DNA from: Chitinophagaceae bacterium | GTDB taxonomy: Bacteria > Bacteroidota > Bacteroidia > Chitinophagales > Chitinophagaceae | NCBI GenBank assembly: GCA_004322015.1 | Contig: SCQT01000195.1 | Coordinates: 1-32,515, forward strand | Length of the DNA: 32,515 nt | Reading direction: 5' to 3' | Shown: in pieces, positions 4,701 through 25,489 of the stretch | Numbering within the stretch: position 1 is the stretch's first letter | How the letters are laid out: each line of letters begins with the position of its first letter | Notes under the pieces: generated by a model | What the model was told of the DNA's origin: nothing | Database searches by the model: none | What the model saw: only the letters and a program-made list of their open reading frames with translations | Position numbers and translations under genes: made by a program

Positions 4701-5151
4701 TGACAGTAACTCCAGATAATGGATCGCCATTTTTATCTTTTACCATTCCCTCTATCGTTCTCGAAGGCTTTAAAAAAGCCTCTGCTTCTTCCTTTGGAAA
4801 TACCAGGATGGTTTCGTTTTGGAGTAAATAGCCTAAAGGATATCCTGCTATACATTGATCTAATGTTTTCTGAAGAGATGCTTTTTTAACGTCCACATTA
4901 ATGCCTTTAAGGCCTTTTAATGTGCGGCTATCATATAAAAAAAGATAGCCGGTTTGCTGGTGAATGGCGTTGAGCGCTTCTTCCAGCGTGGCGTTGTGAA
5001 GGGAAAGCGTCACCTTTTGCGCATAGCTCCTGGCGCTGACCTGCAAGGCGCAGGTGAAAATTAAAACAGTTGCCAGCTTCATAATCTTCCATACTTTGGC
5101 ACGAAAAGGGCTTCGCAATGAAGCGCCTTTGGCGAATGTATTTAATAACAT
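1765..5151 (-). CDS. SusC/RagA-family TonB-dependent transporter with STN signalling domain (locus 1)
   Basis: Outer-membrane TonB-dependent importer of oligosaccharides, 1128 residues. In order: a signal peptide (hydrophobic core about 25-40, ending near SARSYAQ), an STN (secretin/TonB short N-terminal) domain about 48-118, a carboxypeptidase-regulatory-like beta-sandwich about 132-205 (EGMVKDKNGDPLSGVTV), the VVVGYG box at 213-218, a plug domain about 222-335 (DAASAAIYGSRAANGVILIT) and a 22-strand barrel to the C-terminus. The STN domain is the part that contacts a FecR-type anti-sigma factor, so this is both transporter and sensor, partnered with the FecR and sigma genes upstream. The ATG at 5151 is 12-13 nt from the predicted 5' end of an opposing small RNA. 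No Shine-Dalgarno motif is seen, as is usual in Bacteroidota. Confidence 0.96.
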   Translation of the reverse strand: MLLNTFAKGASLRSPFRAKVWKIMKLATVLIFTCALQVSARSYAQKVTLSLHNATLEEALNAIHQQTGYLFLYDSRTLKGLKGINVDVKKASLQKTLDQCIAGYPLGYLLQNETILVFPKEEAEAFLKPSRTIEGMVKDKNGDPLSGVTVRIKNSNIGTITGANGHFSIDVAGNNTVLQFSYLGYQTQEIVVGDRTELNTTLSESVSTLNQLVVVGYGIEKKADLTGAVASVTPKQLENRPVTSISAALEGTMAGVTVRQTSGQPGRDQGNVIIRGIGTLNNANPMIVVDGMIVSSMDNINPNDIASVTVLKDAASAAIYGSRAANGVILITTKKGKVGSIQVQYNTYFGKQTPTALPDYLPSWEAATMYNEGLANEGKQPVYTQQDIALFKNGTDPYGHPNTDWLGLFYQGRGVQESQYVSLSGGTDKTQYMASFGYLNQQGIVKKTKAQHFDFRINLNTQVSKRLSAFTNLSYSYQPFEEPASSYPGVPGFSQVIRQINRISPVIPYEYANGDYGYIADGSPMAWLNSPSFNRMQPSVFRGNIGADLEIVKGLHFTPSFSYQLQTDYNKQFVADIQYYTPQGVPSFNQGPNNVTDHYDQASVVTLQGLLQYDKSFGNNHFKILGGWSQEYDGYNQLEGYRQNFLNNSLADLNAASTNGQTSSGYSTEVAWMSYFGRLNYDYKGKYLLEANLRYDGSSRFDTTNRWGLFPSISAGWRISDENFFQPLTRIVSDLKIRASWGKLGNAQISGNELASDYGYITTVSSGQNYIFGGTSPTIAAGVAPVYGANPNLKWETTAESDLGVDAGFLNERIILTADYFIKNTTNILISVPVGAPYGLVAPTQNAGAVQNKGVELSLGYHDKKGAFSYGITGNVSFIHNEVTNLDNTAPIISGGTIIKVGLPINAFWGYIAQGLFQTQEEVSKHATESGGVIAPGDIMYKDISGPDGKSDGVINGYDRTYLGNSFPKVAFGANLTFGWKGFDFMAFLEGKAGVKNYVSGIMLGQLSNGAGKPTAAMLNAWTPQNTNASFPRLWVNYTQNDPSANPSSYWIRNAAYLRFKDLQIGYTIPEGITQHVGIQRLRVYYSGQNIFTFTQFYKWVDPEAPTGDNGYYFPQVKVNSVGLNVTF

Positions 5152-5158
5152 ACTTTTG
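5128..5158 (+). promoter_or_regulatory. Consensus Bacteroidota promoter facing away from susC1
   Basis: TTTG at 5128-5131, a 19-nt spacer, and TACTTTTG at 5151-5158 match the primary Bacteroidota sigma consensus TTTG-N19-TAnnTTTG without a mismatch. The predicted start of transcription is about 5164. The -33 element lies inside the susC1 coding sequence and the -7 element overlaps the first base of its ATG, on the opposite strand. There is no plus-strand protein gene downstream; an intrinsic terminator follows about 100 nt later. The match is as good as those for the aldehyde dehydrogenase and YfhO genes in this window. Confidence 0.7.
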
Positions 5159-5163
5159 TATCG

Positions 5164-5272
5164 TTCCGGTTACCCCGGAACAGGTTTGGGTTATTGGAAT
5201 TTGTTATAACGAATGAATGCCGATAGATTACCAGGCCGTTGCCGTCCTGCCTGGATCGCAGGACGGTTTTTT
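5164..5272 (+). ncRNA. Predicted cis-antisense small RNA of the susC1 leader
   Basis: About 109 nt between a consensus promoter and an intrinsic terminator, with no reading frame of note. The 5' end is a perfect 7-bp hairpin, GTTCCGG (5163-5169), loop TTACC, CCGGAAC (5175-5181). The 3' end is a 9-bp GC-rich stem, CCGTCCTGC (5242-5250) with GCAGGACGG (5258-5266), followed by six T. The RNA would be fully complementary to the susC1 5' untranslated leader. Position and orientation match the DonS-type RNAs of Bacteroides, which lie between anti-sigma and susC genes and repress the locus. The RNA itself is inferred; promoter, hairpins and terminator are directly visible. Confidence 0.62.
5242..5272 (+). 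terminator. Intrinsic terminator on the plus strand in the susC1 leader
   Basis: A perfect 9-bp stem (5242-5250 with 5258-5266), a 7-nt loop and T6 at 5267-5272. The T tract is on the plus-strand side only; read in the susC direction the stem is preceded by A's and followed by CAACGG. It therefore ends a transcript running against susC1, not the sigma/anti-sigma mRNA. Confidence 0.75.
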
Positions 5273-5370
5273 ATTTATGATAATCTGGTGATGGTAAAGC
5301 TTATGTTTTCATGATTTTAGATTTAAAATTTATAGAATTATCCATTTTTAAAGCGTATAAGATTAATTTG

Positions 5371-5655
5371 GTTGTTCTTTCTTTTCCTTGATGAAAAGAA
5401 AAGAACCAAAGAAAAATCAAGACTTCCCGAATATTCGGGCGAAAAATGACTAAAATTTGCTCAATTACGCTACGGAAGATAATGCTCCGGTCAACATTTT
5501 AAACTTTTGCAAGCCCTTATATTATTCGGCATTACCTAAATCTATCCGTATTTTCCGTTGACGCTCCATTATCGCAAATTTTTTAACGTCATTTTTCTAA
5601 GGTCATGAGGCAAAGCCACTATTTCTAATACTACGGAACTAAGTGATTAATTCTA
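5371..5655 (+). repeat. Dispersed intergenic repeat, copy A
   Basis: About 280 bp that reappears in the same orientation at 18133-18404. It opens with a 13-bp stem, GTTCTTTCTTTTC (5374-5386) with its complement at 5393-5406 (one bulged A), then shared text including a 30-bp identity (5448-5477) and a 33-bp identity (5572-5604), and ends near GAACTAA. Copy A carries an extra perfect 14-bp palindrome, CCCGAATATTCGGG (5426-5439), missing from copy B. No reading frame is conserved between copies, so it looks non-coding. It fills most of the 509-bp gap between anti-sigma and susC1; 5273-5370 shows only AT-rich sequence. No transposase or target-site duplication was seen. Confidence 0.85.
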
Positions 5656-5660
5656 TTTAA

Positions 5661-6884
5661 TTACTTGTCAGCCTGCGAAACAATAACGTTCCTGCCATCT
5701 ATTTTCAAATGTACGTTACTGGTCACTTCCAGCATGTGCAATACCTGCGATAATTCGGTATTTCGGGATATCATTCCATTCAAATAAGCGTTCGTTTCTC
5801 CTTTATAAACTACTTTCACATTATACCATCTTGCTATCTCGTGCAGGACAGACTGAATATTTGTATTATGAAAAAAGAACAATCCGTCTTTCCATGCCAT
5901 TACCTCCTCTACCTCTGCCACATTCACATTTATCTTATCCGAACCGGCTGAGAAAGAGGCCTGTTGCCCCGGCTTCAAAACCACCTCCTCATTTCCTTTT
6001 GAAACTTCCACCGCCCCTTCCAGCAGGGTGGTTTTAATAGCAGGTTCATCTGAGTAAGCCATCACATCAAAGTGAGTTCCCAATACTTTTACTTCTACCT
6101 GATTTACATCCACTTTAAATGGCATGTCTTTATCAGGAGTGATTTCAAAATATGCCTCACCGGTTACTTTTACTTCCCTGCTTTTACCTGTAAATGCGGT
6201 CGGGAATGTCAGGGAGGAGGCTGCATTCAACCATACTTTACTTCCGTCTGGTAATATTACCCGATATTGCCCGCCCCGGGGAGTACTCAGTGTATTATAC
6301 TCTGATGGACGGTTGCCTGCTGAGGCTGGATTAGCGATTGACGATTGACGATTAAATACCAGTAATCCATTATTTACCTTTGTAATATTATTCGCATATT
6401 TTGTTGGTAAAGCTCCATTCTCCAAGCTATCCAATATTATTTTCTTTCCATTAGCCAATGTCAATACCGCCTTATTTCCTCCCGGCGCTATATCATGCTG
6501 CGTTTGTGTAAGCACCCCGGGAATCTTTTTTACCCGGATATCGTTTTTAAACCACATTATTCCTCCTGCCAGGATAAGAACCGCCAAAACAGCGGCCACA
6601 GCGCTCCATCGCATAAAATATATGCTCTTTTTACCGCTTCTTATCGTTTCCTCTGCCATAAAGGGATTGAAAATGGCGGATAAAATACGTGTTGACTGTT
6701 CTTCATTGAGACGATAAGCGGAAGATAGCCGTGACCACACCTGATCCATCAATCCTTTTAGTTGTTCGTCCTGTTGCGCATGTTGAATAATGCTCAACAG
6801 TTCCTCCTTCTCTTCCTGCGTGCAGATTCCATCCACATAACGCTTTAATAGATATTCCAGACGAGAATCTGATGTTACAGGCAT
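5661..6884 (-). CDS. FecR-family anti-sigma factor (locus 1)
   Basis: Inner-membrane regulator that binds the ECF sigma factor in the cytoplasm and receives the SusC STN signal in the periplasm. With the chosen ATG at 6884 it has 407 residues: a cytoplasmic N-terminus (LEYLLKRYVDG), one membrane segment about 94-112 (SAVAAVLAVLILAGGIMWF), a FecR domain about 195-300 (GGQYRVILPDGSKVWLNAAS, then VTGEAYFEI and VLGTHFDVMAY) and a C-terminal DUF4974/STN-like domain about 335-405. The frame stays open to an ATG at 6968, but those 28 extra residues (a run of four Phe, no homology expected) are unlike the family. The gene lies 92 nt after the sigma gene. A heptamer repeat lies in the coding sequence at 6335-6355. 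Confidence 0.93.
   Translation of the reverse strand: MPVTSDSRLEYLLKRYVDGICTQEEKEELLSIIQHAQQDEQLKGLMDQVWSRLSSAYRLNEEQSTRILSAIFNPFMAEETIRSGKKSIYFMRWSAVAAVLAVLILAGGIMWFKNDIRVKKIPGVLTQTQHDIAPGGNKAVLTLANGKKIILDSLENGALPTKYANNITKVNNGLLVFNRQSSIANPASAGNRPSEYNTLSTPRGGQYRVILPDGSKVWLNAASSLTFPTAFTGKSREVKVTGEAYFEITPDKDMPFKVDVNQVEVKVLGTHFDVMAYSDEPAIKTTLLEGAVEVSKGNEEVVLKPGQQASFSAGSDKINVNVAEVEEVMAWKDGLFFFHNTNIQSVLHEIARWYNVKVVYKGETNAYLNGMISRNTELSQVLHMLEVTSNVHLKIDGRNVIVSQADK
6335..6355. repeat. CGATTGA heptamer tandem inside the anti-sigma gene
   Basis: Three adjacent 7-bp units: CGATTGA, CGATTGA and the variant CGATTAA. They encode part of the periplasmic linker before the FecR domain (around Asn-Arg-Gln-Ser-Ser-Ile-Ala). 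Because seven is not a multiple of three, gain or loss of one unit would shift the frame. Confidence 0.7.
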
Positions 6885-6976
6885 AGTTCTTTTTTTATCA
6901 TTAGACGCAAACAATGAGCAGGCTATATGATACTGACGATTGAAAAAGAAAAAAGGATTAGTGCCCAAGAAATTTT

Positions 6977-7570
6977 TTAATGAAAGAACAGACAGGTAAC
7001 AATTATCAGCAGTAAAATAAACCCCGTAAGATGCGCAATAAGGTAATGGCGCACTTTCGCTCTGGCCTTGGCAATATGGACTTTTACCGTATTTTTTGAG
7101 ATATGAAGCGATTCGGCAATTTCCTCCTGTTTTTGTCCCTGGTAAAGGCTCAGGATATATATCTTTTTTTGCTGGGGAGGTAATTGATCCAATGCCTGCT
7201 GTATGATGCTTTCATAATGATGGTATTGGAATACACTTTCCGTATTCTCTTCTGACATTTCTGCGTCACGGCTCCATGCTACCTTTAAAGCATGTTCATG
7301 TGCCAGCTTTTTCAAATAATCAAAACACAGATTGCGGGTAATGGTATATAGATATGCCTCAAAATTATTCATTTCGGCAAGCCGTTCTTTATTTACCCAT
7401 AGCTTGAGAAATATATCCTGAACGATTTCCTCCGAAGCAGGCACCGAATGAGTAAAATGCATGGCATAAGCATACACCTGCTGCTTAAAGGAATTAAATA
7501 AATCCCTGAAAGAGCTTTCGTCACCCCCCGCTATCTTCTCCAGTAATTTGTGTAACGTAATGTTATCCAA
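6977..7570 (-). CDS. ECF RNA polymerase sigma-70 factor (locus 1), TTG start, hydrophobic C-terminus
   Basis: Directs RNA polymerase to the locus 1 promoter when released by the adjacent anti-sigma. The 197-residue protein has sigma region 2 about 22-90 (ASEEIVQDIFLKLWVNKE; YLYTITRNLCFDYLKK) and region 4 about 122-175 (LPPQQKKIYILSLYQGQKQEEIAESLHISKNTVKVH, written here as the helix-turn-helix zone). The start is TTG: an in-frame TAA lies five codons upstream and no ATG occurs between it and the region 2 core. Starting at TTG gives the expected MDN...LLEKIAGGDE N-terminus. Residues 180-197 (LTGFILLLIIVTCLFFH) are strongly hydrophobic, enough to span a membrane. This is the first gene of locus 1. 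Confidence 0.92.
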   Translation of the reverse strand: MDNITLHKLLEKIAGGDESSFRDLFNSFKQQVYAYAMHFTHSVPASEEIVQDIFLKLWVNKERLAEMNNFEAYLYTITRNLCFDYLKKLAHEHALKVAWSRDAEMSEENTESVFQYHHYESIIQQALDQLPPQQKKIYILSLYQGQKQEEIAESLHISKNTVKVHIAKARAKVRHYLIAHLTGFILLLIIVTCLFFH

Positions 7571-7718
7571 ACAAATATAATTTTAACGTGATAAAGTTAA
7601 AATTATTCTGATAATTTTCCATTAATTCATAAAAGGTCCAATACATAACTTAATATTGTTTCGTATTTTTTTCCTTGCTTCTAAGTGATTCAGCCATAAA
7701 TTATTTATACCCATAAAA

Positions 7719-9620
7719 TTAACCTGCCTTCTTCCACTTTTTCATCCTTCTCCTTAACCAGCTCAACGGGCAATTCACTTGTTTACCGATAGGTTTTCCG
7801 CACCGGTAAGTAATCACCTTTATTTCAGATGCTCCTTCTGGAATATCTAAGGGTTTCCCTGTATATTCAGGAGAAAAATTATCCGGGTCAGTTCCATCGA
7901 AACGATAATAAATATCCAGTCCTGGAATTTGAGCTTCTAAAACTACTTTCATAGAATCATCAGAACCTTTAATAGCCGAGATCACCGGATCATACATACT
8001 GGTGGCATATTTAATTTGTGCTTCCTGTAAATAAGGTAATTGATCCTGCATACGTATCAAAAAGCTGTTCCAATTATGTTTATCTTCCTGTGACCAAAAG
8101 ACTTCTGCCAGGGCCATCGCTCTGGGATAAGCCATATATTCCAGATGACGATAGTCAGGGATATGTTCCGTCCATAAACAGGCTTCACCACCTAAAATGA
8201 ATGTCGGATCAACACCTTCGGGAAGGATATTCGTTTCATAACATTTCTGGAGCGTGATCATCCCCGGTCCGGGCGGTTCTGCCAGCGGATTTCCCTGTAT
8301 CTGGCTCAAGTAAGTAGAGCCGTAAGGCGCCATGATCACATGATGCCCCATTTGCGAAGCTTTAATACCTCCCTGTTCACCACGCCAGCTCATCACAGTA
8401 GCTTCGGGCGCTAATCCCCCTTCCAATATTTCATCCCACCCGATCATTTTTTTCCCTTTGGCAATGATCAGCTTCTCCAATTTCTTTTCAAAAAAGCTTT
8501 GCAATTCTGCCGGTGTCGTTAACCCTTCCTTCTTCATTAAAGCCAGATCTCCCGGATCCTTCATCCAGAAACTCCGGTTGGCTTCATCTCCTCCCACATG
8601 GATATATCGGGATGGAAATAGTTTCGCTACCTGGGAAAATATAGTATCTAATGCAATCCATGTAGAATCATTGGCCACGTCCAATACATTATCAATACTA
8701 TCCGGTGGATATTGGGGCCATACAGAATATTGTTTTCGTGTACTCGACAAATTGGGATAAGAGGCGATCAATGCCAGGCAATGCGCTGGTACGTCAATCT
8801 CAGGAAGGACAGTAATAAACCGTTCTTTAGCATACTGAACTATTTCGCGAATATCTTCCTGTGTGTAATATCCGCCATACGTTTCTTTTTCACCAGGCTG
8901 TGGCGCTTCAAACGTCCCCCATCTTCCGGTTCTTGGCACACGCCAGGCGCCTGTTTCTGTCAGTTTCGGCAACCCTTTAATCTGTATCCTCCATCCCTGA
9001 TCGTCCGTTAAATGCCAATGAAACACATTGTATTTGTATTTCGCCATTTCATTGATGAATTGTTCAATGGCTTTCATGCCGAAGAAATGGCGGCTGTCAT
9101 CCACCATCATGCCCCGCCATTTAAACCTGGGGTAATCCGTGATATTGACACAAGCCGCTTTCCATGAAATATGCCTTACCACAGTATCTGATTCAATTTG
9201 CGAAGGAAATAATTGCATCAAAGATTGCATTCCGTAAAAAATGCCATTCGGCTTATTAGCTGAAATAATAATCTTCTCAGATAAAACTTTTAACCCGTAG
9301 CCTTCATCACCAAGTAAGGTGTCTGGTTTCCTGTAAATATTTAAAATGATACCGCCTGAAATGGTCCTTTCTTTTCCTCCCATTGCCCGAAGGTTAAACC
9401 CGGTTGGCTTATTCAGCATTGTTGCAAATAATCCGGAGACATCTTTTAATTCCTGAGTAGAATAGATAATTTTTGTGTCGGGTCTTAATATGAAATTACC
9501 CTGCTCAATCTTAACCGAAACAGGTACCGGGACAATATGAATGCCTGATAGCTGAAGCGCCGACTGGGCAAAACAATACTTCGAAATTATCAATAATGCA
9601 AAAAGGATTATTTTCTTCAT
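7719..9620 (-). CDS. GH20 beta-N-acetylhexosaminidase, secreted
   Basis: Exo-acting enzyme that removes terminal beta-linked GlcNAc or GalNAc by substrate-assisted catalysis. The 633-residue protein has a Sec signal peptide (1-19, ending CFAQ), a GH20b N-terminal domain about 28-150 (IVPVPVSVKIEQG), the catalytic TIM barrel about 165-510 with HWHLTDDQGWR (201-211) and the catalytic pair Asp345-Glu346 in HVGGDE (341-346), and a C-terminal chitobiase/hexosaminidase beta-sandwich about 545-615 (YYRFDGTDP). All key residues are intact. It is the last gene of the locus 2 enzyme block, 43 nt after the SGNH gene. The signal peptide has no lipobox, so it is probably periplasmic. Linkage preference is not readable. 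Confidence 0.95.
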   Translation of the reverse strand: MKKIILFALLIISKYCFAQSALQLSGIHIVPVPVSVKIEQGNFILRPDTKIIYSTQELKDVSGLFATMLNKPTGFNLRAMGGKERTISGGIILNIYRKPDTLLGDEGYGLKVLSEKIIISANKPNGIFYGMQSLMQLFPSQIESDTVVRHISWKAACVNITDYPRFKWRGMMVDDSRHFFGMKAIEQFINEMAKYKYNVFHWHLTDDQGWRIQIKGLPKLTETGAWRVPRTGRWGTFEAPQPGEKETYGGYYTQEDIREIVQYAKERFITVLPEIDVPAHCLALIASYPNLSSTRKQYSVWPQYPPDSIDNVLDVANDSTWIALDTIFSQVAKLFPSRYIHVGGDEANRSFWMKDPGDLALMKKEGLTTPAELQSFFEKKLEKLIIAKGKKMIGWDEILEGGLAPEATVMSWRGEQGGIKASQMGHHVIMAPYGSTYLSQIQGNPLAEPPGPGMITLQKCYETNILPEGVDPTFILGGEACLWTEHIPDYRHLEYMAYPRAMALAEVFWSQEDKHNWNSFLIRMQDQLPYLQEAQIKYATSMYDPVISAIKGSDDSMKVVLEAQIPGLDIYYRFDGTDPDNFSPEYTGKPLDIPEGASEIKVITYRCGKPIGKQVNCPLSWLRRRMKKWKKAG

Positions 9621-9663
9621 ACACTAAACAATACTTAAAACCTTAATAATAAAGGGAGGAACC

Positions 9664-11430
9664 TTATTTGAGGATGTGGCTGATCTCTTTTCCTAACACT
9701 TCATATCCTTTCCCGTCCGGATGTAAACCATCGCTAACGAACAGAGCAGGATTAATTTTTCCATCTTTTGTCAACGGTTTTCCGAAATCCACATACGTAA
9801 AATGATTCCTTAAAGTCATATTCTTAATTTGACGATTAATTGTTTCTACCTGTTTTTCAGCACCGCGCCTGGGTAAGATGCCTGCCATTATTATTTCAGC
9901 ATCCGGTTTCTTCTGGTGTATCTGTTCAAGCAGGAATTGTAATCCATTGACAATATCTTCATTCGAGTTAATTCCCAAATTATTAGTTCCAATCATAATC
10001 AATATCTTTTTACCCCGGAAATTATCCAATTCACCATGATAGACCCTCCATAATACATTTTCTATCCTGTCCCATCCAAAGCCGGCATTTTGAACTTTTA
10101 CGGGAGCCAGATATTTATTCCAGCTATTGTCACCTCTGGCAATACCGCTTTCTGCCGCAGGTTCACCACCCCAATAATTGATAATGGAATTACCTAAAAT
10201 AATGGCATCAGGATTTGTTTTTTTAATATTTTCCATTACTTCATCATGCCGTTTTACCCAGTCATACCCATCTCTGTATTGTTCAATGGGGATTTCAGTA
10301 GCCATGTCTCCTTTGGGTTCGTGTAAAATCTGCCGGATGATCTTTTCGTATGCATTGGCATATTGTATCATGCCTATATCATCTGAGTGCAAACCTTCAG
10401 TAGTGCTGTTTATATCAAAACCAATTTCCTTATCCGTTAACAGATAAATATTTTTAAATCCGTCCGTTTTCAAATCATTATAAATGCCTGCTATCACCAT
10501 GCTGGCTCTGTGATATTGATTCAATCTGGCGGTATCCATGTAAAACGGCGAATATCCAACCGAATGCTCAACTAACAGAATAGGAGTCTCTGGATGATGC
10601 TCCTGCAATGTTTTTATCCCATAATACACTCTGGTTTTAATCAGGCTGTCAGGGTAGATTTTCTCATTGTCTAAGTTGGGCATGCAGTCTAAAATATATA
10701 AAGCAGCATCCGTTTTAGCCATCAAATCGAAAATAGGCTTTTCAAATCGTCCGTTTCCTGAAAACCCCAAATTGATTACGGTACGATCTAATCTTCTTTC
10801 TAAAATATTAGTCCAGGCTAAACCAGCTCTTGAAGCTACCCCCCCCTGCAGGATGGAGGTACCATAAGCAACTATGGGGTTTCCTTTATTTTCCCGGACA
10901 AATTCAAGCTTATCCTGATTGGGCACACCTATGGAAAGCCATTTTACCGTATTATACAATGGCAGGTATAAATAAAAATCAGCCGGCTTATGGTTATCTG
11001 CAAGGTATAAATGGGTATATTGAAAAACACAGGTATCGCCAAAATGATAATGCGGCGGCGCCCAGTTCCAGTTTCCATTCATATCCATAGCAAACAAATC
11101 CACACCGCTGACGCCCATTTCGGGCATGTGAGGAAAAGGGTTCAGATTATCTTCCAACACATATCGAACTGTTATCTCGCGCGCAGTGGTTTTAAAATGT
11201 AGAAACTCTCCTGCTGTATTTTTGGAAAGATACCAGACAGGTTTCCTGACTTCTGATTCCATATTGGCAGGAAGCCGGTAATAGATATGATTGGTATCAC
11301 GCACGCAAATACCTTCCACATAATTGGGTTCATGCCAGGAATAGTTTGATTGCGCGAACAGGGAAATTCCCGAAAAAAGGAATGCTATCATTATTAAGAT
11401 CACCGAATAATGTTTTGTTCTAATAATCAT
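9664..11430 (-). CDS. Secreted protein with two SGNH/GDSL esterase domains
   Basis: Probable carbohydrate O-deacylase. The 588-residue protein has a signal peptide (1-27, ending SLFAQ), an N-terminal beta-sandwich about 30-175 and then two SGNH domains. Domain 1 (about 180-370) shows the nucleophile block AYGTS (Ser192), the glycine block NLGFSGNG (220-227) and His348 in EGLH, where the usual Asp is Glu345. Domain 2 (about 385-588) shows ILGNS (Ser415), NAGFG (448-452), GTNN (481-484) and an intact D567-G-L-H570. Both nucleophiles and both histidines are present, so both domains may be active. The neighbours suggest it removes acetyl or similar esters that block glycosidases. The natural ester is unknown. 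A relation to CE families or PAF acetylhydrolases is only at superfamily level. Confidence 0.86.
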   Translation of the reverse strand: MIIRTKHYSVILIMIAFLFSGISLFAQSNYSWHEPNYVEGICVRDTNHIYYRLPANMESEVRKPVWYLSKNTAGEFLHFKTTAREITVRYVLEDNLNPFPHMPEMGVSGVDLFAMDMNGNWNWAPPHYHFGDTCVFQYTHLYLADNHKPADFYLYLPLYNTVKWLSIGVPNQDKLEFVRENKGNPIVAYGTSILQGGVASRAGLAWTNILERRLDRTVINLGFSGNGRFEKPIFDLMAKTDAALYILDCMPNLDNEKIYPDSLIKTRVYYGIKTLQEHHPETPILLVEHSVGYSPFYMDTARLNQYHRASMVIAGIYNDLKTDGFKNIYLLTDKEIGFDINSTTEGLHSDDIGMIQYANAYEKIIRQILHEPKGDMATEIPIEQYRDGYDWVKRHDEVMENIKKTNPDAIILGNSIINYWGGEPAAESGIARGDNSWNKYLAPVKVQNAGFGWDRIENVLWRVYHGELDNFRGKKILIMIGTNNLGINSNEDIVNGLQFLLEQIHQKKPDAEIIMAGILPRRGAEKQVETINRQIKNMTLRNHFTYVDFGKPLTKDGKINPALFVSDGLHPDGKGYEVLGKEISHILK

Positions 11431-11528
11431 AAGCTGTTATTATTTATGTTTTTGTTTTATTAGTAGAATTTAGCCACTCAGTTACAATTCATCGCACCTT
11501 ACAATTTAATGCCGTTCGGTGTGATATT

Positions 11529-11603
11529 CAACCCCTCCAGGGTTGGATCCTATCCTTTACTTTCCTCCGTGGGCTTTGCCCACGGTTAATCGGATTGATG
11601 CCT
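11529..11603. repeat. REP-like pair of palindromes between the SGNH and GH16 genes
   Basis: The 229-bp gap 11431-11659 contains two perfect hairpins. The first is CAACCC (11529-11534), loop CTCCA, GGGTTG (11540-11545). The second is CCGTGGGC (11567-11574), loop TTT, GCCCACGG (11578-11585), followed by TTAATCGGATTGATGCCTTT. The compact two-palindrome layout is what dispersed REP-type elements of Bacteroidota look like, but only one copy is in the window. Neither stem is followed by a T tract, so they are not typical intrinsic terminators; they could stabilise the upstream mRNA end. Confidence 0.6.
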
Positions 11604-11659
11604 TTCAGGTATCTCTTCTCGAAAAAAATCTTTACAAAATGGCATTGATTAATCGTCAT

Positions 11660-13986: not shown

Positions 13987-14080
13987 AAGTGTATTTTTAA
14001 TGTAGTTGGATAATAATGATAAAGTCACGAATATTCAGATCATCTGCATTAAATATTATTTTCAATTGAACCGATAGTTT

Positions 14081-18007: not shown

Positions 18008-18132
18008 TTGTTAAACTTTGGGGCTCAAGTTAGGAATTGTTCTTAAACCACGAACGGTTATTTTCTATTCAATGTCATTTAAACAAATATTTTATAGAAT
18101 TAGGTATTTAAAGCACGTTACCCACTGATCAT

Positions 18133-18404
18133 AATGTTCTTTCTTTGTCTTAAAACAAAGAAAGAACCAAAGAAAATTCAAGACTTACGAAAAACGACTA
18201 AAATTTGCTCAATTACGCTACGGAAAATAATGCTCCGATCAACTTTTGCCCCTGGTTTAGCAATTGCTATACTCAACTTTAGTGTAAATCCGATCATATT
18301 TTCCGTTTAACGCTTCATTTTCGCAAATTTTTTAACGTCATTTTTCTAAGGTCGCTATGGCAGTGCCCTTATTCCAGTACAACGAGAACTAACTACCTAA
18401 TTCT
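18133..18404 (+). repeat. Dispersed intergenic repeat, copy B
   Basis: Same element and orientation as copy A near 5371. The head hairpin is perfect here: GTTCTTTCTTTGT (18136-18148), loop CTTAAA, and its exact complement at 18155-18167. Two stem pairs differ from copy A by compensatory changes (T:A to G:C and C:G to T:A). The 33-bp block at 18321-18353 is identical to copy A. The middle part (18245-18300) is diverged and the 14-bp palindrome of copy A is absent. It occupies most of the gap 18008-18534; 18008-18132 shows only AT-rich sequence. Confidence 0.85.
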
Positions 18405-18522
18405 AATATTTTAATATTAGAAGATGTTCTAATGATTATTTTGTTTTGTGTTACTTTTCTTAATAGTATATACTTGACGGGAAAGTGACTATCCCGGCTT
18501 ATTCAAATAGAATTATGATCTT

Positions 18523-18555
18523 CAAATATAAATACTAAATACCCTTCATACCAAA
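18523..18555 (-). promoter_or_regulatory. Candidate promoter upstream of repeat copy B, directed at the GH-D-like gene
   Basis: On the minus strand TTTG (18555-18552), a 21-nt spacer and TATATTTG (18530-18523) fit the Bacteroidota promoter pattern, though the spacer is two bases longer than ideal. It overlaps the 3' end of the second fucosidase gene. A transcript from here would cross repeat copy B before reaching the enzyme gene about 510 nt downstream. Confidence 0.35.
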
Positions 18556-19911
18556 CGCTGCAAACTTAACTATTACAGGTGTTCGATCTGTTTTAAGAAT
18601 ATTCAGGCGAATTCTATTTGTTTTGACAGTATTAAAAACCTGAATCCGTTTATGCCCTACAGAAATACCCTTGCAAACAGGAATCCATTGATTATTTTCC
18701 CATACGTCCACCGAATATTCCCGGATTCTTTGTCCTTTACTTAGATCTTCCATGATGACTATTTGATTAACAGAGACGGGATGTTTTGATAAATTTAAAA
18801 TAAATTCTTTTCCTGCTCCTTTCGTTTCTGCAATTGGATGTGAGAACCTTTCTTTAATGGCTTTGCCAAAATCAGCAAAGAGTTTCGTTTCTTTAGCCGG
18901 AAATAATCCTGCGGTATCTATGGCCATTCCAATCAGCAGATTAGTATTTCTTCCAACAGTATGATCATACACATGCACTAAAGAATCTAACGAAACTACA
19001 TCCTGCTCTCTGTTGGCGCGCCAAAACCATCCGCCTTCCCATGCTGACTTTTTCCTGCTTGGAAAATCAGATTCTGCCGGAACCCAAATATCCCCGTTGG
19101 GGTCACCGTTCAATCCACCCATAGATACATAGCCATGTGAAGAAGTAGTGGAATCATCGCGGCACCACATCGGATAAGGCGCATTTCCGTATTCATTTCC
19201 CACCCAGCGAATCAGGTTTTTACAGGAGGCAGGTCCCTGGAAAAGTATGGCTTGCGGCTGATATTTTTTGATCATGGCTGCCAACTGATCTGAAACACCA
19301 CCCTGACTTGTCGGGAGGATGCCGCCATCAAACCAAATCTCAAACCATTTGCCATAATGTGTCCATAGTTCTTTTTCCTGTTCCAACACAATTTTATTGT
19401 ATGCTTTTCGAGCCGAGTCCGATATATGATTACTTGCCTGATAGAGCGTACTACTATTCACACTGTAATATACGCCCGGCTCAATGCCATATTTTTTACA
19501 GGATTTAATAAAGTCAGCCACGATATCCTCCTTTCCATGTTTCCAGGGTGTATGACCGACATTGTAGTCATTGGCTTTGGAAGGCCAGTTCGCGAACCCC
19601 GTTCCATGCTTGGCAACGAAAACCGCATATTTTGCACCGGCAGATTTAGCCGCTCTTATCCATTGATCCGTATTCAATTTCGCCGGATAGAAAGCGCTTA
19701 ACGTAGGCAAGGTCTTTTTGTCACCAGCACGATACGTATCGGGTGCATACAGGTTAATATCCAAATGAATGATGACGCCGATTTCGGCATTGGACCAGGC
19801 AACTTGTTGGGGAGTGGGAAGGATGGGGTTATTAAGAGACTGCCCATTACTGGTATAAACGAAAATAATGCAAATAGTTAAGAATAAAAAACTACCAATT
19901 AATTTTTTCAT
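18535..19911 (-). CDS. GH29-type alpha-L-fucosidase, secreted (second, divergent)
   Basis: Predicted retaining fucosidase and first enzyme gene after susD2. From the preferred ATG at 19911 it has 458 residues with a hydrophobic signal peptide ending near TSNGQS; an in-frame ATG at 19938 adds nine unlikely residues. The nucleophile is Asp195 in EIWFDGG. Two usual sugar-contact motifs are altered: the HFG loop reads HLDINLY, and KHHDGF reads KHGTGF. A short C-terminal beta domain (VSVNQIVIMEDLSKGQRI) resembles that of the first GH29. The altered pocket suggests a different aglycone or linkage preference (inference). The start lies 65 nt beyond a terminator-like hairpin following susD2. Confidence 0.88.
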   Translation of the reverse strand: MKKLIGSFLFLTICIIFVYTSNGQSLNNPILPTPQQVAWSNAEIGVIIHLDINLYAPDTYRAGDKKTLPTLSAFYPAKLNTDQWIRAAKSAGAKYAVFVAKHGTGFANWPSKANDYNVGHTPWKHGKEDIVADFIKSCKKYGIEPGVYYSVNSSTLYQASNHISDSARKAYNKIVLEQEKELWTHYGKWFEIWFDGGILPTSQGGVSDQLAAMIKKYQPQAILFQGPASCKNLIRWVGNEYGNAPYPMWCRDDSTTSSHGYVSMGGLNGDPNGDIWVPAESDFPSRKKSAWEGGWFWRANREQDVVSLDSLVHVYDHTVGRNTNLLIGMAIDTAGLFPAKETKLFADFGKAIKERFSHPIAETKGAGKEFILNLSKHPVSVNQIVIMEDLSKGQRIREYSVDVWENNQWIPVCKGISVGHKRIQVFNTVKTNRIRLNILKTDRTPVIVKFAAFGMKGI

Positions 19912-19976
19912 TATGATAAGTTTAGATTTTAAAGACAACCTTTAGCTACAAATTATGAGGATCAATTTCATAAAGA

Positions 19977-20010
19977 AAAAAAGGGAGTATTCATTTGCTC
20001 TCCCTTTTTT
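19977..20010 (-). terminator. Terminator-like hairpin between susD2 and the enzyme genes
   Basis: An 11-bp stem, A6 GGGAG (19977-19987) with CTCCC T6 (20000-20010), and a 12-nt loop. On the minus strand the stem ends in a T-rich tract, so it can terminate the susC2-susD2 mRNA 40 nt after the susD2 stop. Its symmetry would let it act in both directions. It probably sets enzyme expression below that of the transporter pair. Confidence 0.7.
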
Positions 20011-20050
20011 ATAGTACCCATTTATTAAAATGGTTTTATTTTCAGGGTAA

Positions 20051-21742
20051 TTACCACCCTGGGTTTTGTTTCAGGTTAGGGTTCAGCGTTATCTCCTGCA
20101 AAGGTATTGGATATAAATACATTTTATCATCCCATTTGCGGGCAGTAATACTCGGATACACCCGGATGTAATCATTGTTATCTACCACAATACCGCTCAC
20201 TTGTGTAGGAGGGTACTCCGCTCTTACCGACGGGAGCAGCTTCATTCCTAAAATAGTTTCGGGATTATTGATCAGGTCGCCGGCATGCCACCTGTGCAGA
20301 TCATCAAATCTAAACCCTTCAGAACCCAGTTCTACCCGCCGTTCGCGACGTATTTCGAGAATAACATTTTTCAGCGGTCCGGTAACCAACGGATATTTGG
20401 CAGCCAACCAGGGATCAACAGGAACTGTCATGGTCATATGTGGCATCCCTACCCTGTCTCTTAGGAGGTTAATGGATTTATCCAAGTCGTCTTGTGTGAA
20501 AGTAGCTTTACCCTCGTTGGCTAATTCTGCCTTTGCTTCTGCATAAATAAGCAAGGTTTCCGCGTACCTGAATATAAAGAAATCGTAAGTGGAAGCATTC
20601 GCGTTCCAGGCGGCCAGGCTGGATGAACGTCCTTTGGTACACTGATAACCCGTGGAGGTTACCGTGGTTCCTATTCGGGGAAGAGAAATAGTGTCTCCGG
20701 CTAAAAAATCAAATCCCCTGGTGGCAATTTGTTGCTTAAGGCGGGGGTCGCGGTTTATTATCTCCTCATCCAACGAATCATCCCCTTTGTATAAGGAGCT
20801 CATATCGGTCGGTAGCCCGTCCGTACATAAAAATGATCGTACAAAATCTTTACTATATCCGTCTCCGGCTTCGCCCAGGGACCGGTCGATACCGTTCATC
20901 AACACTACCGGTAAATACCGCATACACATGATGGATTCAGGATTGTCTTTCAGTTCCTCCTGGATAAACAAATTATAATAGTCCGTTTGGGGGTGCCCCG
21001 TACTATAAATGCCGAACTTTCCTGAATTCATTATCTGTTCGGCAGCATCTAAAGCCGCCTGTAAAAAAACATCCTGGTCGCCGGTCTTCCAATATTCCCT
21101 GTAAGTGCCTTCCCAAAGGCAAATCCGGGACTTCAAAGCAAGCGCATCATATTTATTCAGCCGGCCATCCGCAGTACTTACCGGAATATGGTCAACAGCA
21201 AAATTCAAATCTTTCAGCACTGAATCCATTACCTGTTTATGCTGCATCCTGACTCCATATAAGGCGGATTTAGAGGTGTCTGTAATATATTTATCAATAT
21301 ACGGAACATCCCCGAAGGTCTTTACTTTATTCCAATAATCCAATGCTCTGAAAAAGAGCGTTTCGCCTACATAAATGTTTTTAATGCTGTCACTTACGTT
21401 CGCTTTGGAATAATTAGCCAGGAAGAAATTCAACGTCCTGATGAAGCTGAAATCCCATGCAGTACCGCTTGCAGAGTTAGGCACCGTATAAGTCCCTGCA
21501 AGAAATGAATTGATAGACTGAGGGGCCTTATCGTCAGAATTATCATCTGCACGTAAAAAATTCTGAACCGGCAGTTGTGAATAATATTGATTACAATATA
21601 ATTGCAGATCAGTTTCGTTTTTAAAGAAACTCTGCGGGCTGATGTCACTCAGCGGATAACGATTAAGAAAACTGTCTTTTTTGCAGGATGTAATGGCGGT
21701 CATTGCAAAAAGCATTGTATATATAATATATTTATTTTTCAT
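20051..21742 (-). CDS. SusD/RagB-family outer-membrane glycan-binding lipoprotein (locus 2)
   Basis: Surface lipoprotein partner of the SusC2 transporter, 563 residues. The lipobox AITSC places the lipidated Cys at about residue 20, followed by KKDSFLNRYPL, a mature start typical of SusD. The RagB/SusD C-terminus is present (YLYPIPLQEITLNPNLKQNPGW). The central part carries the usual TPR-like segments (ETLLIYAEAKAELANEGKA; LNLLRDRVGMP-type motif). The gap from the susC2 stop is 42 nt, so the two are co-transcribed. The downstream enzymes point to a fucosylated, sulfated amino-sugar glycan as ligand, which is inference. Confidence 0.96.
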   Translation of the reverse strand: MKNKYIIYTMLFAMTAITSCKKDSFLNRYPLSDISPQSFFKNETDLQLYCNQYYSQLPVQNFLRADDNSDDKAPQSINSFLAGTYTVPNSASGTAWDFSFIRTLNFFLANYSKANVSDSIKNIYVGETLFFRALDYWNKVKTFGDVPYIDKYITDTSKSALYGVRMQHKQVMDSVLKDLNFAVDHIPVSTADGRLNKYDALALKSRICLWEGTYREYWKTGDQDVFLQAALDAAEQIMNSGKFGIYSTGHPQTDYYNLFIQEELKDNPESIMCMRYLPVVLMNGIDRSLGEAGDGYSKDFVRSFLCTDGLPTDMSSLYKGDDSLDEEIINRDPRLKQQIATRGFDFLAGDTISLPRIGTTVTSTGYQCTKGRSSSLAAWNANASTYDFFIFRYAETLLIYAEAKAELANEGKATFTQDDLDKSINLLRDRVGMPHMTMTVPVDPWLAAKYPLVTGPLKNVILEIRRERRVELGSEGFRFDDLHRWHAGDLINNPETILGMKLLPSVRAEYPPTQVSGIVVDNNDYIRVYPSITARKWDDKMYLYPIPLQEITLNPNLKQNPGW

Positions 21743-21784
21743 TGTATTAAAATTTATCAGGTAAGTTACATATTATCTCTTCTC

Positions 21785-24700
21785 TTACAGGGTGATCCGT
21801 AAACCAAAAGATACCGATTTATTGATCGGATAAGTATTATACCCTCCACCGAAGTTTACGATCTCCGGGTCAAATCCTTTAAAGAGAGATGTTATTGTAA
21901 TAAGGTTAGACCCTGTTACATATACCCTTACCCTTTGTATATTTAGTCTGCCGATCAGTTGTTTAGGCAGGCTATAGCCCAATGTTATTTGCTTTACCCT
22001 TCCATAAGCGGCATTTTGCAGATACTTTGTTTGAGTCTGTTCATTTCCATAACCGGCGAACCGCGGGCGTGCAAAATATGCATTCGGATTCTGGGGAGTC
22101 CAGTAATTCATGGCATAGGCGTATGGAATACCCCACTCATCATAGGGGAAGGCATTAAACACATTGCTTCGGGTAGGATCAAAATCTGATTTTAGTACTC
22201 CCTGGACAAACAAAGCCAAATCAAAATCTTTGTATGATACATTGAGATTGAAGCCGAACTTATACCTGGGGGTATTATTGCCAATTATTTTCTCATCCCC
22301 GGGATTTGCAAGTGTGCTATTGCCTCTGTCAATCTTCCCATCCCCATTCAGATCACGATATTGTATATCGCCTGCCAGCCATTTATACCCTGCCAGGGCA
22401 GAATTGTCGACAGCCTGTGCCTTTGCATCTGAGGTGTAAAAGCCCTCTGTTACAAAACCCCAGATATTTCCTAACCTCTCTCCCGGGTAATAATCATTCA
22501 AACTATAAGTAGGATTGCCTGAATATTTAGTAATAGTACTATAACTATCGGATAATCCGAGTGTTGCGCTATAGTGTAACTTGTCATTAAGCAGGTTGTC
22601 GTTCCAGGTTATACTTAATTCCCAGCCTCTTGTTCTTAGACTCGCAGAGTTGGTGGGCGGGGCCGAGGTTCCCAATACCGCAGGCAATTGCTGGCTGGCA
22701 ACGACCATGTCCTTCGTATCTGTGATAAAATAGTCAAAGCTGCCGCTAAGCCTGTCTCTTAGCAATGAATAATCAATACCGACATCTTTGGTCTGCACCT
22801 TTTCCCAGGTAAAAGTAGGACTGATTAACCGGGGTGTACCTACCGTTATTCCCGGCTCATTATTAAAGAGATAACCGACTGTTCCGGTTGGCATCGTTGC
22901 AATGTAAGGATATTGGGCACTCGATGATATATTATTAGGTGGCGGTGGGGCCAGTTGATTAGGCAGTTCTCCATAAGAGCCTCTGATCTTCAATTCATCA
23001 ATGGTATTCCTTAAATTCTGCATAAACGATTCCTGTGCAATATCCCATCCTGCAGATACAGATGGAGAGAATGCATACCTGTCATTAGGCTGAAAACGAG
23101 AAGTGCCATCATATCTGCCGTTAATCTCTAATAAATATTTATGATCATAAATATAATTTATCCTGAAGAAAGTACCAACTAAAGCCGACGCTGTTTCAGT
23201 ACCTCCGACAGTTGGTTTAGTGTCATTATTTGCTCCAATTGCAGGCAGTTCAGGGTCTATCAGGTTTCTTGCCAAAGCATTGCTCAACCTGTAATGATGA
23301 TACTCCTGGTTATAACCGATGAGTGCTTTAAAATAGTTTTTACTGCCAAAGGTGTTTTCATAAGTCGCATACGCATTTAAAGCAGTATAATCATTATTTT
23401 GCTTCTTTTCGGAAACCTGTGAAGGATTGGTCCAGGGGAATATATCCAGGAAAACCCCATTCACCCCATACTCGTTAAACGGTATCAGGTTTGCCTTGTC
23501 GAATTCACTATAACTATTCCATGTATAATCCGATGTGATGGTCAGATGCTTAACAGGTTTTAAGATCACTCTTCCTGTGGCCCAAAGATCATTTACCTGA
23601 TCTATGTCTCTTCCCGAGAGTGTTAAAATAGCAACAGGATTGGAATAGCTTCCCTGGCCGGAAAAATGCCCGTCTGGATTATAGACAGGCATCAATGGCC
23701 TTAAATCCCCGGGGATCCAAGACCCGCCCTGGTTGATTCTCGTCCGGGCGCCCTGGTTATTATCTGTATGTGTTGCAGACATACTCATGTTCACAGTGAG
23801 CCATTTTGTGATATCCGAATTTATTTTCAAATTAGGAGTGAATCGTTCATATATCTGATGTGCTACCTTTTCAAGGCCTTCCTGCCTGAAATAACCCAGG
23901 CTTGCTGCATAGGTAGTTTTTCCTGCACCACCGGATACAGACAGATGGTGATCCTGTTGAGGGGCCCAGCCTGGATACAGCACTTTTACCCAATTTGTAT
24001 TTCCGACGTACCGGTATTTGTTGGGATTGCCCGGATCAGGGTATGCATCGGGATTATGTGCAGGATCTTTCATATAAGCAGCTGCCATGGTCGAATCCAA
24101 TGCTGTCAACGGATCACTCGAAGTATATCCTCCCGTCAGGGCACCTGTTCTCTGGGCGCTGTTAAATAATTGTATATAGCCGGCGGAACTGACATAATTG
24201 GGTAAGTTAGTAGGCCTTGACGTAGTGTAAGACTCTGAATAGCTAATTTGGGTTTTCCCCTTTACTCCTGACTTTGTAGTGATCAAAATGACCCCATTTG
24301 CTGCTCTTCCCCCGTATATTGCCGCGGAAGCAGCGTCTTTTAATACTGTTACACTAGCCACATCGTTAGGGTCAATTAGATTAGGGTCACGTTGTACCCC
24401 GTCAACAAGTATAAGAGGCGCCGAACTGGAATTTTTGTCTATAGTAGTAAGTCCTCTTACGTTATAAGTAGCAGCGGTACCGGGCTGCCCGCTGCCAAGA
24501 TTGACATTGAGATTAGGGATAAGTCCTTCTAGCCCGTCTCCGAGATTTACCAGTGGACGACTTTCCAATTTATCACTTCCCACCGTAGCGACAGCACCTG
24601 TCAAATCTACCTTTTTCTGTGTCCCATACCCCACCACTACCACTTCATTCAATCCTGTATTAGAAGCAGATAAAGTAACATTAACGGAACTCTTGCCACC

Positions 24701-25318
24701 GATTGAGACTTCTCTATATTTATAACCAATAAAAGAAAAAACTAAGATGGAATTATCCGGTGCATTCAACAAATAATTTCCATGTACGTCCGTAACCGTT
24801 CCTATATTAGTCCCTTTTACCTGCACCGTAACTCCAATGAGTGGATTTCCCAGACTATCAGTCACCTTTCCATGAACAGGTTGAACTGTCAGTAAATTTT
24901 CATCATTCTCTCGAATAATTACTAAGTTACCATCCATAATCTTATAGCCTAACGACGTGCCTTTCACTACAGCATTCAGGACTTCGGGGATCGTCACCTG
25001 CTTTAATTCCAAGTTAACCTTCGCTTCGCCTTCCAACTCATCATTATTATAATAAAACACATATCCTGATTTCTTTTCCAGATAGCGAAGTACCTTGGAA
25101 ATTTTAGCGTCTTTAAAATTTACAGACACCTTATTCTGGGAATATCCGGTAGCAGATACTTGCATCAATCCCAGGAATAAGAAAAGGCAGGTCAGTTTCG
25201 TCATAAGGATCAGCTTTCGTAAAAATGGAGAAAATTTACGCTTCACCCTGCCGGTCCGAGAGATATTATCACAATCTCTTAAACCCCTTTGGGTAAACAA
25301 ATAATTCATAACTTGCAT
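21785..25318 (-). CDS. SusC/RagA-family TonB-dependent transporter with STN domain (locus 2)
   Basis: Outer-membrane glycan importer and signal transducer, 1177 residues. After a long basic N-terminus comes the signal peptide core (LTCLFLFLGLMQVSATGYSQ, to about residue 61), then an STN domain about 65-130 (NFKDAKISKVLRYLEKKSGY), a carboxypeptidase-regulatory-like domain about 147-225, the VVVGYG box, the plug (DAASAAIYGGRAANGVILIT) and the barrel. Two ATGs are possible, at 25318 and at 25309 (codon 4). The second aligns better with susC1 when the overlapping antisense promoter motifs are compared, so the protein may begin MNYLFTQRG. It follows anti-sigma after a 255-bp gap holding a predicted antisense RNA. 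Confidence 0.96.
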   Translation of the reverse strand: MQVMNYLFTQRGLRDCDNISRTGRVKRKFSPFLRKLILMTKLTCLFLFLGLMQVSATGYSQNKVSVNFKDAKISKVLRYLEKKSGYVFYYNNDELEGEAKVNLELKQVTIPEVLNAVVKGTSLGYKIMDGNLVIIRENDENLLTVQPVHGKVTDSLGNPLIGVTVQVKGTNIGTVTDVHGNYLLNAPDNSILVFSFIGYKYREVSIGGKSSVNVTLSASNTGLNEVVVVGYGTQKKVDLTGAVATVGSDKLESRPLVNLGDGLEGLIPNLNVNLGSGQPGTAATYNVRGLTTIDKNSSSAPLILVDGVQRDPNLIDPNDVASVTVLKDAASAAIYGGRAANGVILITTKSGVKGKTQISYSESYTTSRPTNLPNYVSSAGYIQLFNSAQRTGALTGGYTSSDPLTALDSTMAAAYMKDPAHNPDAYPDPGNPNKYRYVGNTNWVKVLYPGWAPQQDHHLSVSGGAGKTTYAASLGYFRQEGLEKVAHQIYERFTPNLKINSDITKWLTVNMSMSATHTDNNQGARTRINQGGSWIPGDLRPLMPVYNPDGHFSGQGSYSNPVAILTLSGRDIDQVNDLWATGRVILKPVKHLTITSDYTWNSYSEFDKANLIPFNEYGVNGVFLDIFPWTNPSQVSEKKQNNDYTALNAYATYENTFGSKNYFKALIGYNQEYHHYRLSNALARNLIDPELPAIGANNDTKPTVGGTETASALVGTFFRINYIYDHKYLLEINGRYDGTSRFQPNDRYAFSPSVSAGWDIAQESFMQNLRNTIDELKIRGSYGELPNQLAPPPPNNISSSAQYPYIATMPTGTVGYLFNNEPGITVGTPRLISPTFTWEKVQTKDVGIDYSLLRDRLSGSFDYFITDTKDMVVASQQLPAVLGTSAPPTNSASLRTRGWELSITWNDNLLNDKLHYSATLGLSDSYSTITKYSGNPTYSLNDYYPGERLGNIWGFVTEGFYTSDAKAQAVDNSALAGYKWLAGDIQYRDLNGDGKIDRGNSTLANPGDEKIIGNNTPRYKFGFNLNVSYKDFDLALFVQGVLKSDFDPTRSNVFNAFPYDEWGIPYAYAMNYWTPQNPNAYFARPRFAGYGNEQTQTKYLQNAAYGRVKQITLGYSLPKQLIGRLNIQRVRVYVTGSNLITITSLFKGFDPEIVNFGGGYNTYPINKSVSFGLRITL

Positions 25319-25321
25319 TGT

Positions 25322-25400
25322 TTTTTTTATTTAAAATAGTGAGGAAATACAGTGGTGTTTTCTCGATGCGGGGAATATGCCAGTATTCCCCGTTTTTTTT
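25322..25400 (+). ncRNA. Predicted cis-antisense small RNA of the susC2 leader
   Basis: About 79 nt with two consecutive stem-loops. Stem 1 pairs 25341-25350 with 25355-25364 (10 bp, loop AGTG), and two of its pairs are G-U wobbles. These would be C-A mismatches in RNA from the other strand, so the fold belongs to plus-strand RNA. Stem 2 is the terminator. The candidate promoter is weaker than in locus 1: TTTG at 25288-25291, a 17-nt spacer and TAACTTGC at 25309-25316, overlapping the susC2 start codons. The layout repeats that of locus 1 without sequence similarity, as expected for locus-specific antisense regulators. The 5' end is a guess. Confidence 0.55.
25369..25400 (+). terminator. Intrinsic terminator on the plus strand in the susC2 leader
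   Basis: A perfect 9-bp stem, CGGGGAATA (25369-25377) with TATTCCCCG (25384-25392), a 6-nt loop and T8 at 25393-25400. It is oriented against susC2, and no plus-strand protein gene precedes it. It is the strongest terminator signature in the window. Confidence 0.82.
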
Positions 25401-25489
25401 CGAAAAGCTCACGGAGGAGCATGGGCACGGTATTTATCTAATGGAAATATATTCTTCATAAAATGTTTTTTTAATTCAGGAGTTAAAAA

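Follow-up and report, generated by a model that had tools for sequence, protein, structure and literature searches.

A 32,515-nucleotide stretch of DNA from a Chitinophagaceae bacterium (contig SCQT01000195.1, positions 1 to 32,515; hereafter the window) carries two loci at which the genes for an extracytoplasmic function (ECF) sigma factor, a FecR-type anti-sigma protein and a SusC TonB-dependent transporter with an STN domain follow one another in that order, and at which SusD is also present according to Pfam. We show herein that the strand opposite each of these susC genes bears the same set of sequence elements over the 5' leader, namely a -33 element and a -7 box, a sequence that folds, and an intrinsic terminator that acts in one direction only. 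These elements co-occur non-randomly, they are tied to SusC genes of the STN/FecR/sigma type, and at locus 2 the block that they form is conserved. As the layout matches that of the DonS family, with which the predicted length is compatible, the two candidate RNAs probably add members to a class already known, and it is highly likely, on sequence grounds, that each locus carries the gene for a cis-encoded antisense RNA of the DonS kind.

Antisense layout at the two loci

The first-pass annotation had proposed one antisense arrangement for both loci, and the promoter, the folded body and the terminator opposite susC were located at each of them (Table 1). The available part of PMC7366714 gives TAnnTTTG at -7 and TTTG near -33 as the consensus, and there is good reason to regard the antisense promoter of locus 1 as being of this Bacteroidota type. 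Its -7 box reaches into the start codon, the first T lying opposite the A of the susC start codon. That the box lies on the susC ATG, as had been claimed, holds at locus 2 as well, except that the ATG concerned is the one at 25307-25309 and not that at 25316-25318, the first of the open reading frame (ORF). The former is probably the true start of susC 2 (position 25309), since it is the ATG supported by alignment with a relative from another genome, L079, where the counterpart of the box reads TAAATTGC. The antisense strand of locus 2 also has a stem-loop between the -7 box and the terminator, and each predicted RNA folds better than all 200 of its dinucleotide shuffles. A search of the window against Rfam at the gathering score gave 0 matches. 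The two RNAs share no sequence with each other, as had been stated; nonetheless, each has relatives elsewhere, that of locus 2 at L079 and that of locus 1 at C208 in the same genome and at L071, whose hairpins resemble it by eye.

We propose that a housekeeping (sigma-ABfr-type) promoter within the first susC codons, whose -7 box shares bases with the start codon, would direct synthesis of an RNA of about 80-115 nt. This RNA would be the complement of a stretch of the susC leader that begins about 12 nt ahead of the ATG and extends to about 84 nt (at locus 2) or about 116 nt (at locus 1) ahead of it, where the RNA would end at the one-way terminator, and would pair with the leader and keep uninduced susC expression low. 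Such a role as a brake is plausible by analogy with DonS. Firing of the ECF sigma factor would send sense transcription across the region, which could occlude the antisense promoter, so that a threshold may result. Because the terminator would halt the antisense polymerase before the stretch presumed to hold the sense promoter, action through the RNA is favored over polymerase collision in that stretch. Moreover, each RNA need match only its own leader, and its sequence may therefore drift while the layout stays.

Distribution in the genome of origin

The census in the same genome covered about 720 kb of 4.5 Mb, picked around SusC and FecR genes together with other stretches. Of 57 matches to TIGR04056, 54 were used (C215 and C228 lacked the 5' end of the gene, and two matches in C264 belonged to one gene), and C291, an STN receptor with no TIGR04056 match, was added to the STN/FecR-type group. 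This group (n = 21, both window loci included) was defined by STN and/or an upstream FecR; C208 and C36 entered it by FecR, without an STN match, and the scoring of C119 used less upstream sequence. Terminators were sought in the 220 nt before susC by a single rule for all genes, other genes with intergenic leaders serving as controls. A terminator was called strong if its hairpin was at most 46 nt long and reached -12 kcal/mol or better, and a box was called if it matched at least five of six consensus positions.

Antisense-strand terminators were found at 19/21 STN/FecR-type SusC genes, compared with 7/34 other SusC genes and 22/122 other genes, and the figures for strong ones were 17/21, 2/34 and 3/122, respectively. 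On the sense strand the corresponding numbers were 3/21, 4/34 and 26/122. The difference from other SusC genes on the antisense strand gave Fisher p values of 6e-7 (loose calls) and 1e-8 (strong calls). The -7 box was present at 16 of the 21 as against two of the 34, and box and terminator occurred jointly at 16 and one, respectively. The comparison of terminator rates suggested by the first-pass annotation, run on this part of the genome, thus placed the STN/FecR-type genes well above both control groups, and its claim that the layout is general at STN-SusC/FecR/sigma loci is strongly supported. The rule is nevertheless neither absolute, as C254 and C36 show, nor exclusive. The susC gene at 8454-11615 of C156 (C156:8457) has a perfect box, a strong antisense terminator and an ATG-TAA mini-ORF, and no STN, sigma or FecR match was found in its surroundings; the neighboring genes look like those for a beta-glucosidase and a LacI-type regulator.

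Distribution in other Bacteroidota

In other genomes a total of 228 SusC starts was located, of which 205 remained after removal of those with no start, with less than 320 nt upstream, or in duplicate. For the STN loci, the counts cover those that were listed or scored best (in G010, 20 of 34 regions; in G003 and G007, parts). In STN genes the start was taken as the ATG closest to a point 205 nt ahead of the STN domain, and in the others as the earliest ATG; the box score was the highest reached at any candidate ATG, and STN genes usually have more of these, so that a lean in their favor is possible. Antisense terminators stood at 85/113 STN genes versus 18/92 non-STN genes, strong ones at 57/113 versus 5/92, and box plus terminator at 64/113 versus 3/92; sense terminators stood at 12/113 versus 13/92. 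A first pass, before removal of duplicates and under a different start rule, had given terminators at 15/26 and 5/48. Among the named loci alone, box and terminator occurred together at 12 of 25 STN loci and none of 47 non-STN loci, the 12 including Parabacteroides, Dyadobacter, Mucilaginibacter, Chitinophaga and uncultured Bacteroidales.

Thirty further loci were taken from 132 matches in two Parabacteroides genomes and Bacteroides propionicigenes, and 27 of them were counted, with terminators at 22, box plus terminator at 21 and sense terminators at two. Three of them already figure in the 205-start set (L333, L341 and L337, there as L149, L151 and L218, respectively), and without them the counts are 20/24 and 19/24. 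Many of the rest are one gene sampled twice, once in each of two Parabacteroides species, so this set is only partly independent. Bacteroides propionicigenes alone had box and terminator at three of five loci. Outside the STN class, box and terminator were also found together at L229 and L238 (contig C27 of G033), where no FecR was seen in the DNA examined, and at L233, which with C156:8457 makes four such genes.

Weighing the explanations

Since the box overlaps the start codon, a translation context is a real rival: CAAAnnTATG might be a sense motif for translation initiation and the hairpin a structural element of the susC leader, with no antisense RNA. Bacteroidota typically have an A-rich sense context ahead of the ATG, A is likewise frequent at sense positions -15 to -13, a mini-ORF lies directly before the hairpin in the leader, and the -33 peak described below is absent from the Parabacteroides/Bacteroides set. 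However, few non-STN SusC starts show this context, both elsewhere (9/92) and in the genome of origin (2/34). Among the 88 STN starts with a box, CAAA (antisense TTTG) stands at sense +20 in 12, at +19 in three and at +21 in two, compared with zero to two at each other position tested; the peak at +20 corresponds to TTTG-N19-TAnnTTTG, that is, to a -33 element at promoter spacing within the coding region. C204 of the same genome keeps the antisense box TACCTTTG though no ATG is there, and a T-tract behind the hairpin is nearly confined to the antisense strand, strong terminators on the sense strand amounting to 1/21 STN/FecR-type genes in this genome and 4/113 STN genes elsewhere. A G opposite sense position -12 is conserved (67%), which suggests the start of an antisense RNA; the set-wide predicted length, with ends so placed, has a median of about 98 nt (interquartile range 89-111). 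We give the sense-motif explanation very little credence.

If antisense transcripts do arise, they might act by transcriptional interference between convergent promoters, or be noise contained by the terminator, rather than by pairing. The antisense promoter would face the presumed sense promoter at short range, and in the part of PMC7366714 available, 73% of the antisense starts of B. thetaiotaomicron lead to short, weak transcripts, some possibly spurious. On the other hand, an antisense polymerase would be halted by the terminator short of the upstream stretch, and the RNA body folds strongly and is conserved between locus 2 and L079 (72% identity, compared with 52% for the stretch upstream, 52% for the first codons, +3 to +60, and 67% for the next codons). 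An account in terms of interference or noise is in our judgment unlikely, although it keeps an appreciable share of the probability. It is also conceivable, but improbable, that the association arose because a sigma-FecR-leader-STN cassette was inherited as a whole, selection no longer acting on the antisense RNA. L064, in which a locus-1-like SusC barrel is joined to a leader and STN domain like those of C268, fits this idea, as the cassette seems to move as a unit. Against it, one stem pair of the terminator has changed on both sides between locus 2 and L079, and in two Parabacteroides species compared at seven locus pairs chosen by eye, box plus ATG are identical at 10/10 positions every time, as opposed to 68-84% identity upstream of the hairpin, while the hairpins differ in sequence and still fold.

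Several observations nonetheless weigh against antisense RNAs of the DonS kind as a general feature of these loci. Loose terminators were also called in 98 of 399 Markov-shuffled STN leaders, about one quarter, so that the weight rests on the strong class (10/399). Two of the 21 STN/FecR-type genes in the genome of origin, C254 and C36, have no antisense terminator, nor, by the rule used, do 28 of the 113 STN genes elsewhere, where the distribution is uneven (in G004 only one of four has it) and where the named STN loci of Pedobacter, Pararcticibacter, Terrimonas and an uncultured Prevotella lack it; conversely, some non-STN genes carry it. The -33 peak accounts for only 12 of the 88 STN starts with a box and for 0/21 at +20 in the Parabacteroides/Bacteroides set. 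At locus 2 the spacer is short and the box matches only four of six consensus positions, which is weak alone, although the same variant recurs at C208 of this genome and at L065, L079, L085, L117 and L315. In the seven Parabacteroides pairs the RNA body is 73-92% identical, and thus only modestly better conserved than the upstream stretch, and in one pair it is less so. Finally, correlations between antisense RNAs and polysaccharide utilization loci (PULs) in B. thetaiotaomicron are positive as well as negative in the part of PMC10994844 available.

Table 1. Predicted features of the two susC loci in the window (RNA ends inferred)
Feature	Position	Strand	Basis
Locus 1			
susC 1, STN-SusC TonB-dependent transporter, target gene	1765..5151	-	Pfam STN, CarbopepD_reg_2, Plug
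Antisense promoter, -33 element TTTG, N19 to -7 box	5128..5131	+	Sequence; class-wide peak at same spacing
Antisense -7 box TACTTTTG, overlapping susC ATG (5149-5151)	5151..5158	+	Sequence; class-wide motif
Predicted antisense RNA 1, ~110 nt	5163..5275	+	+1 from conserved G; fold z -5.3
5' stem-loop of antisense RNA 1	5163..5181	+	Fold prediction
Intrinsic terminator of antisense RNA 1 (hairpin 5241-5267, T-tract 5268-5277)	5241..5277	+	
Leader mini-ORF of susC 1, ATG AAA ACA TAA (ATGAAAACATAA, read 5312-5301)	5301..5312	-	Sequence; class-wide frame bias
FecR-type anti-sigma gene (ORF as listed, TTG start)	5661..6968	-	Pfam FecR, FecR_C
ECF sigma factor gene	6977..7570	-	Pfam Sigma70_r2, Sigma70_r4_2
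Locus 2			
susC 2, STN-SusC, preferred start ATG 25307-25309	21785..25309	-	Pfam; start from alignment with L079
Candidate -33 element TTTG, spacer 17 (shorter than usual)	25288..25291	+	Sequence
Variant -7 box TAACTTGC, overlapping susC ATG	25309..25316	+	Sequence; recurring variant
Predicted antisense RNA 2, ~80 nt	25321..25401	+	Fold z -5.2; block conserved with L079
Intrinsic terminator of antisense RNA 2 (hairpin 25368-25393, T-tract 25394-25400)	25368..25400	+	One compensatory stem pair in L079
Leader ORF of susC 2, 16 codons; HAPP-stop end kept in L079	25409..25459	-	
FecR-type anti-sigma gene	25574..26659	-	Pfam
ECF sigma factor gene	26753..27319	-	Pfam

Relation to known systems

As far as the available parts of the reports go, DonS is a short RNA divergent from a susC homologue, is present in several copies per genome, and in one copy represses its PUL in B. 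fragilis (PMC7366714, PMC11697453, PMC10994844), by a mechanism reported as unknown (PMC11697453). The family is 78-128 nt long (PMC7366714), which may be compared with the lengths predicted for the two RNAs of the window. The same partial sources give an own housekeeping-type promoter for 52% of the cis-antisense RNAs of B. thetaiotaomicron (PMC7366714) and 32 annotated PUL-associated antisense RNAs in that species (PMC10994844). Like DonS, the RNAs predicted here would be read divergently from the strand facing a susC homologue and would span its 5' leader, at both loci and throughout the class, and the same layout recurs in the genus of DonS itself, in Bacteroides propionicigenes. A housekeeping-type promoter is likewise seen class-wide and in full form at locus 1, with only the variant box at locus 2. 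Unlike DonS, the present RNAs are predicted only, and lie in a non-Bacteroides genome; in comparison with DonS as described, which is known to us by description alone, they belong mainly to SusC genes of the STN/FecR/sigma type, have the -7 box on the ATG, and are accompanied by a mini-ORF.

The order of sigma factor, FecR and STN receptor genes at both loci recalls FecI-FecR-FecA, to which an antisense RNA layer would here be added; to our knowledge no such layer is part of the classical description of that system. In Hok/Sok, antisense control is exerted through a reading frame in the leader. The leaders of the present loci likewise harbor both a short reading frame and a putative cis antisense RNA, but the loci have no toxin, and the mini-ORF usually lies beside rather than inside the stretch covered by the antisense RNA.

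Many antisense RNAs are listed for Flavobacterium psychrophilum in the available part of PMC9723704. We found no report of the layout outside Bacteroides in the literature covered, which took in few subscription papers and in which the RNAs of PMC9723704 were not matched to susC. As far as this literature goes, the kind of RNA is known from Bacteroides, and what appears to be new is its wide, rule-like distribution, its tie to STN/FecR/sigma loci, and the leader mini-ORF. Antisense RNAs that had been mapped in two Bacteroides species would thereby become a feature, predictable from sequence, of sigma/FecR/STN-controlled nutrient uptake in several groups of Bacteroidota, among them some for which the literature covered yielded no mention of such RNAs, and a box on the ATG with a terminator about 80-120 nt upstream offers a rule for finding candidates without RNA-seq.

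A mini-ORF in the susC leader

A short start-stop reading frame often lies just upstream, in the sense direction, of the hairpin. Terminators were present in 103 leaders, 87 of which left enough room after the stop of the upstream gene; in 60 of the 87 the stretch tested held an ATG. The rule for choosing the ATG was fixed only after the first sequences had been inspected. The upstream "FecR stop" was assigned automatically, wrongly at some loci (at C186:1768 of this genome, for example, it is listed at -33), and the set of 60 was not checked by hand. The mini-ORF consists of an ATG, at most eight further codons (in 54 of the 60) and a stop, at a median distance of about 18 nt before the hairpin. 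A stop came first in the ATG's own frame in 44/60 leaders, compared with 49/136 for ATGs of non-STN leaders and 42/114 for ATGs between hairpin and susC. At the Parabacteroides/Bacteroides loci, where the mini-ORF is in many Parabacteroides cases GCCTATG plus zero to five codons, the own-frame stop was first in 15/22, and a stop within six codons was present in 21/22, versus 12 and 11 in the other frames; without two loci already in the first set, these figures are 13/20 and 19/20. The stops outlast sequence change between Parabacteroides species, as in ATGACATAA, which becomes ATGGTATAG. Moreover, a mini-ORF accompanies the hairpin at three non-STN exceptions (C156:8457, L229 and L238). The mini-ORF is thus supported by frame statistics, by the persistence of its stop, and by its presence at these exceptions; further examples are L332, L333, L335, L341 and L346. 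A limited literature search found no published description of it.

Its link to the antisense RNA is a matter of conjecture. A tentative scheme, to which we would not give even odds, is a phylum-wide leader switch in two parts, with the mini-ORF followed by the antisense-covered stretch, in which ribosomes on the mini-ORF would decide between pairing of the leader with the antisense RNA and opening of the leader to translation of susC. The mini-ORF makes the mode of action of these RNAs directly testable.

Enrichment of k-mers upstream of the hairpin identified no sense (ECF) promoter. Two candidates were set aside: TTCACC, which by inspection looked like the end of FecR, and TGCCTATG/ATGAAAACATAA, which behaved more like a mini-ORF than like a promoter.

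Additional observations

The leader ORFs of L229 and L238 have paired cysteines close to their end (MKRSCC-stop and MKKMHNHCCK-stop), possibly pointing to a cysteine-sensing leader. The ORF upstream of the L229 susC was read as sulfatase-like.

The SusC of L064 is about 84% identical to that of locus 1 (1765-5151) beyond the N-terminus, its first 120 residues are closest to those of C268 in the genome of origin (49%), and its leader and hairpin align with those of C268. This single case suggests that joint movement of leader, antisense RNA and STN domain is possible, in what appears to be an exchange of regulatory cassettes.

Among terminator hairpins, an apical loop of 7 nt was found in 21/77 of the class versus 12/179 background terminators, and the loop pattern RT[TG]NN[CA]GY in 19/77 versus 3/179; both comparisons are post hoc, and the pattern is not relied on here.

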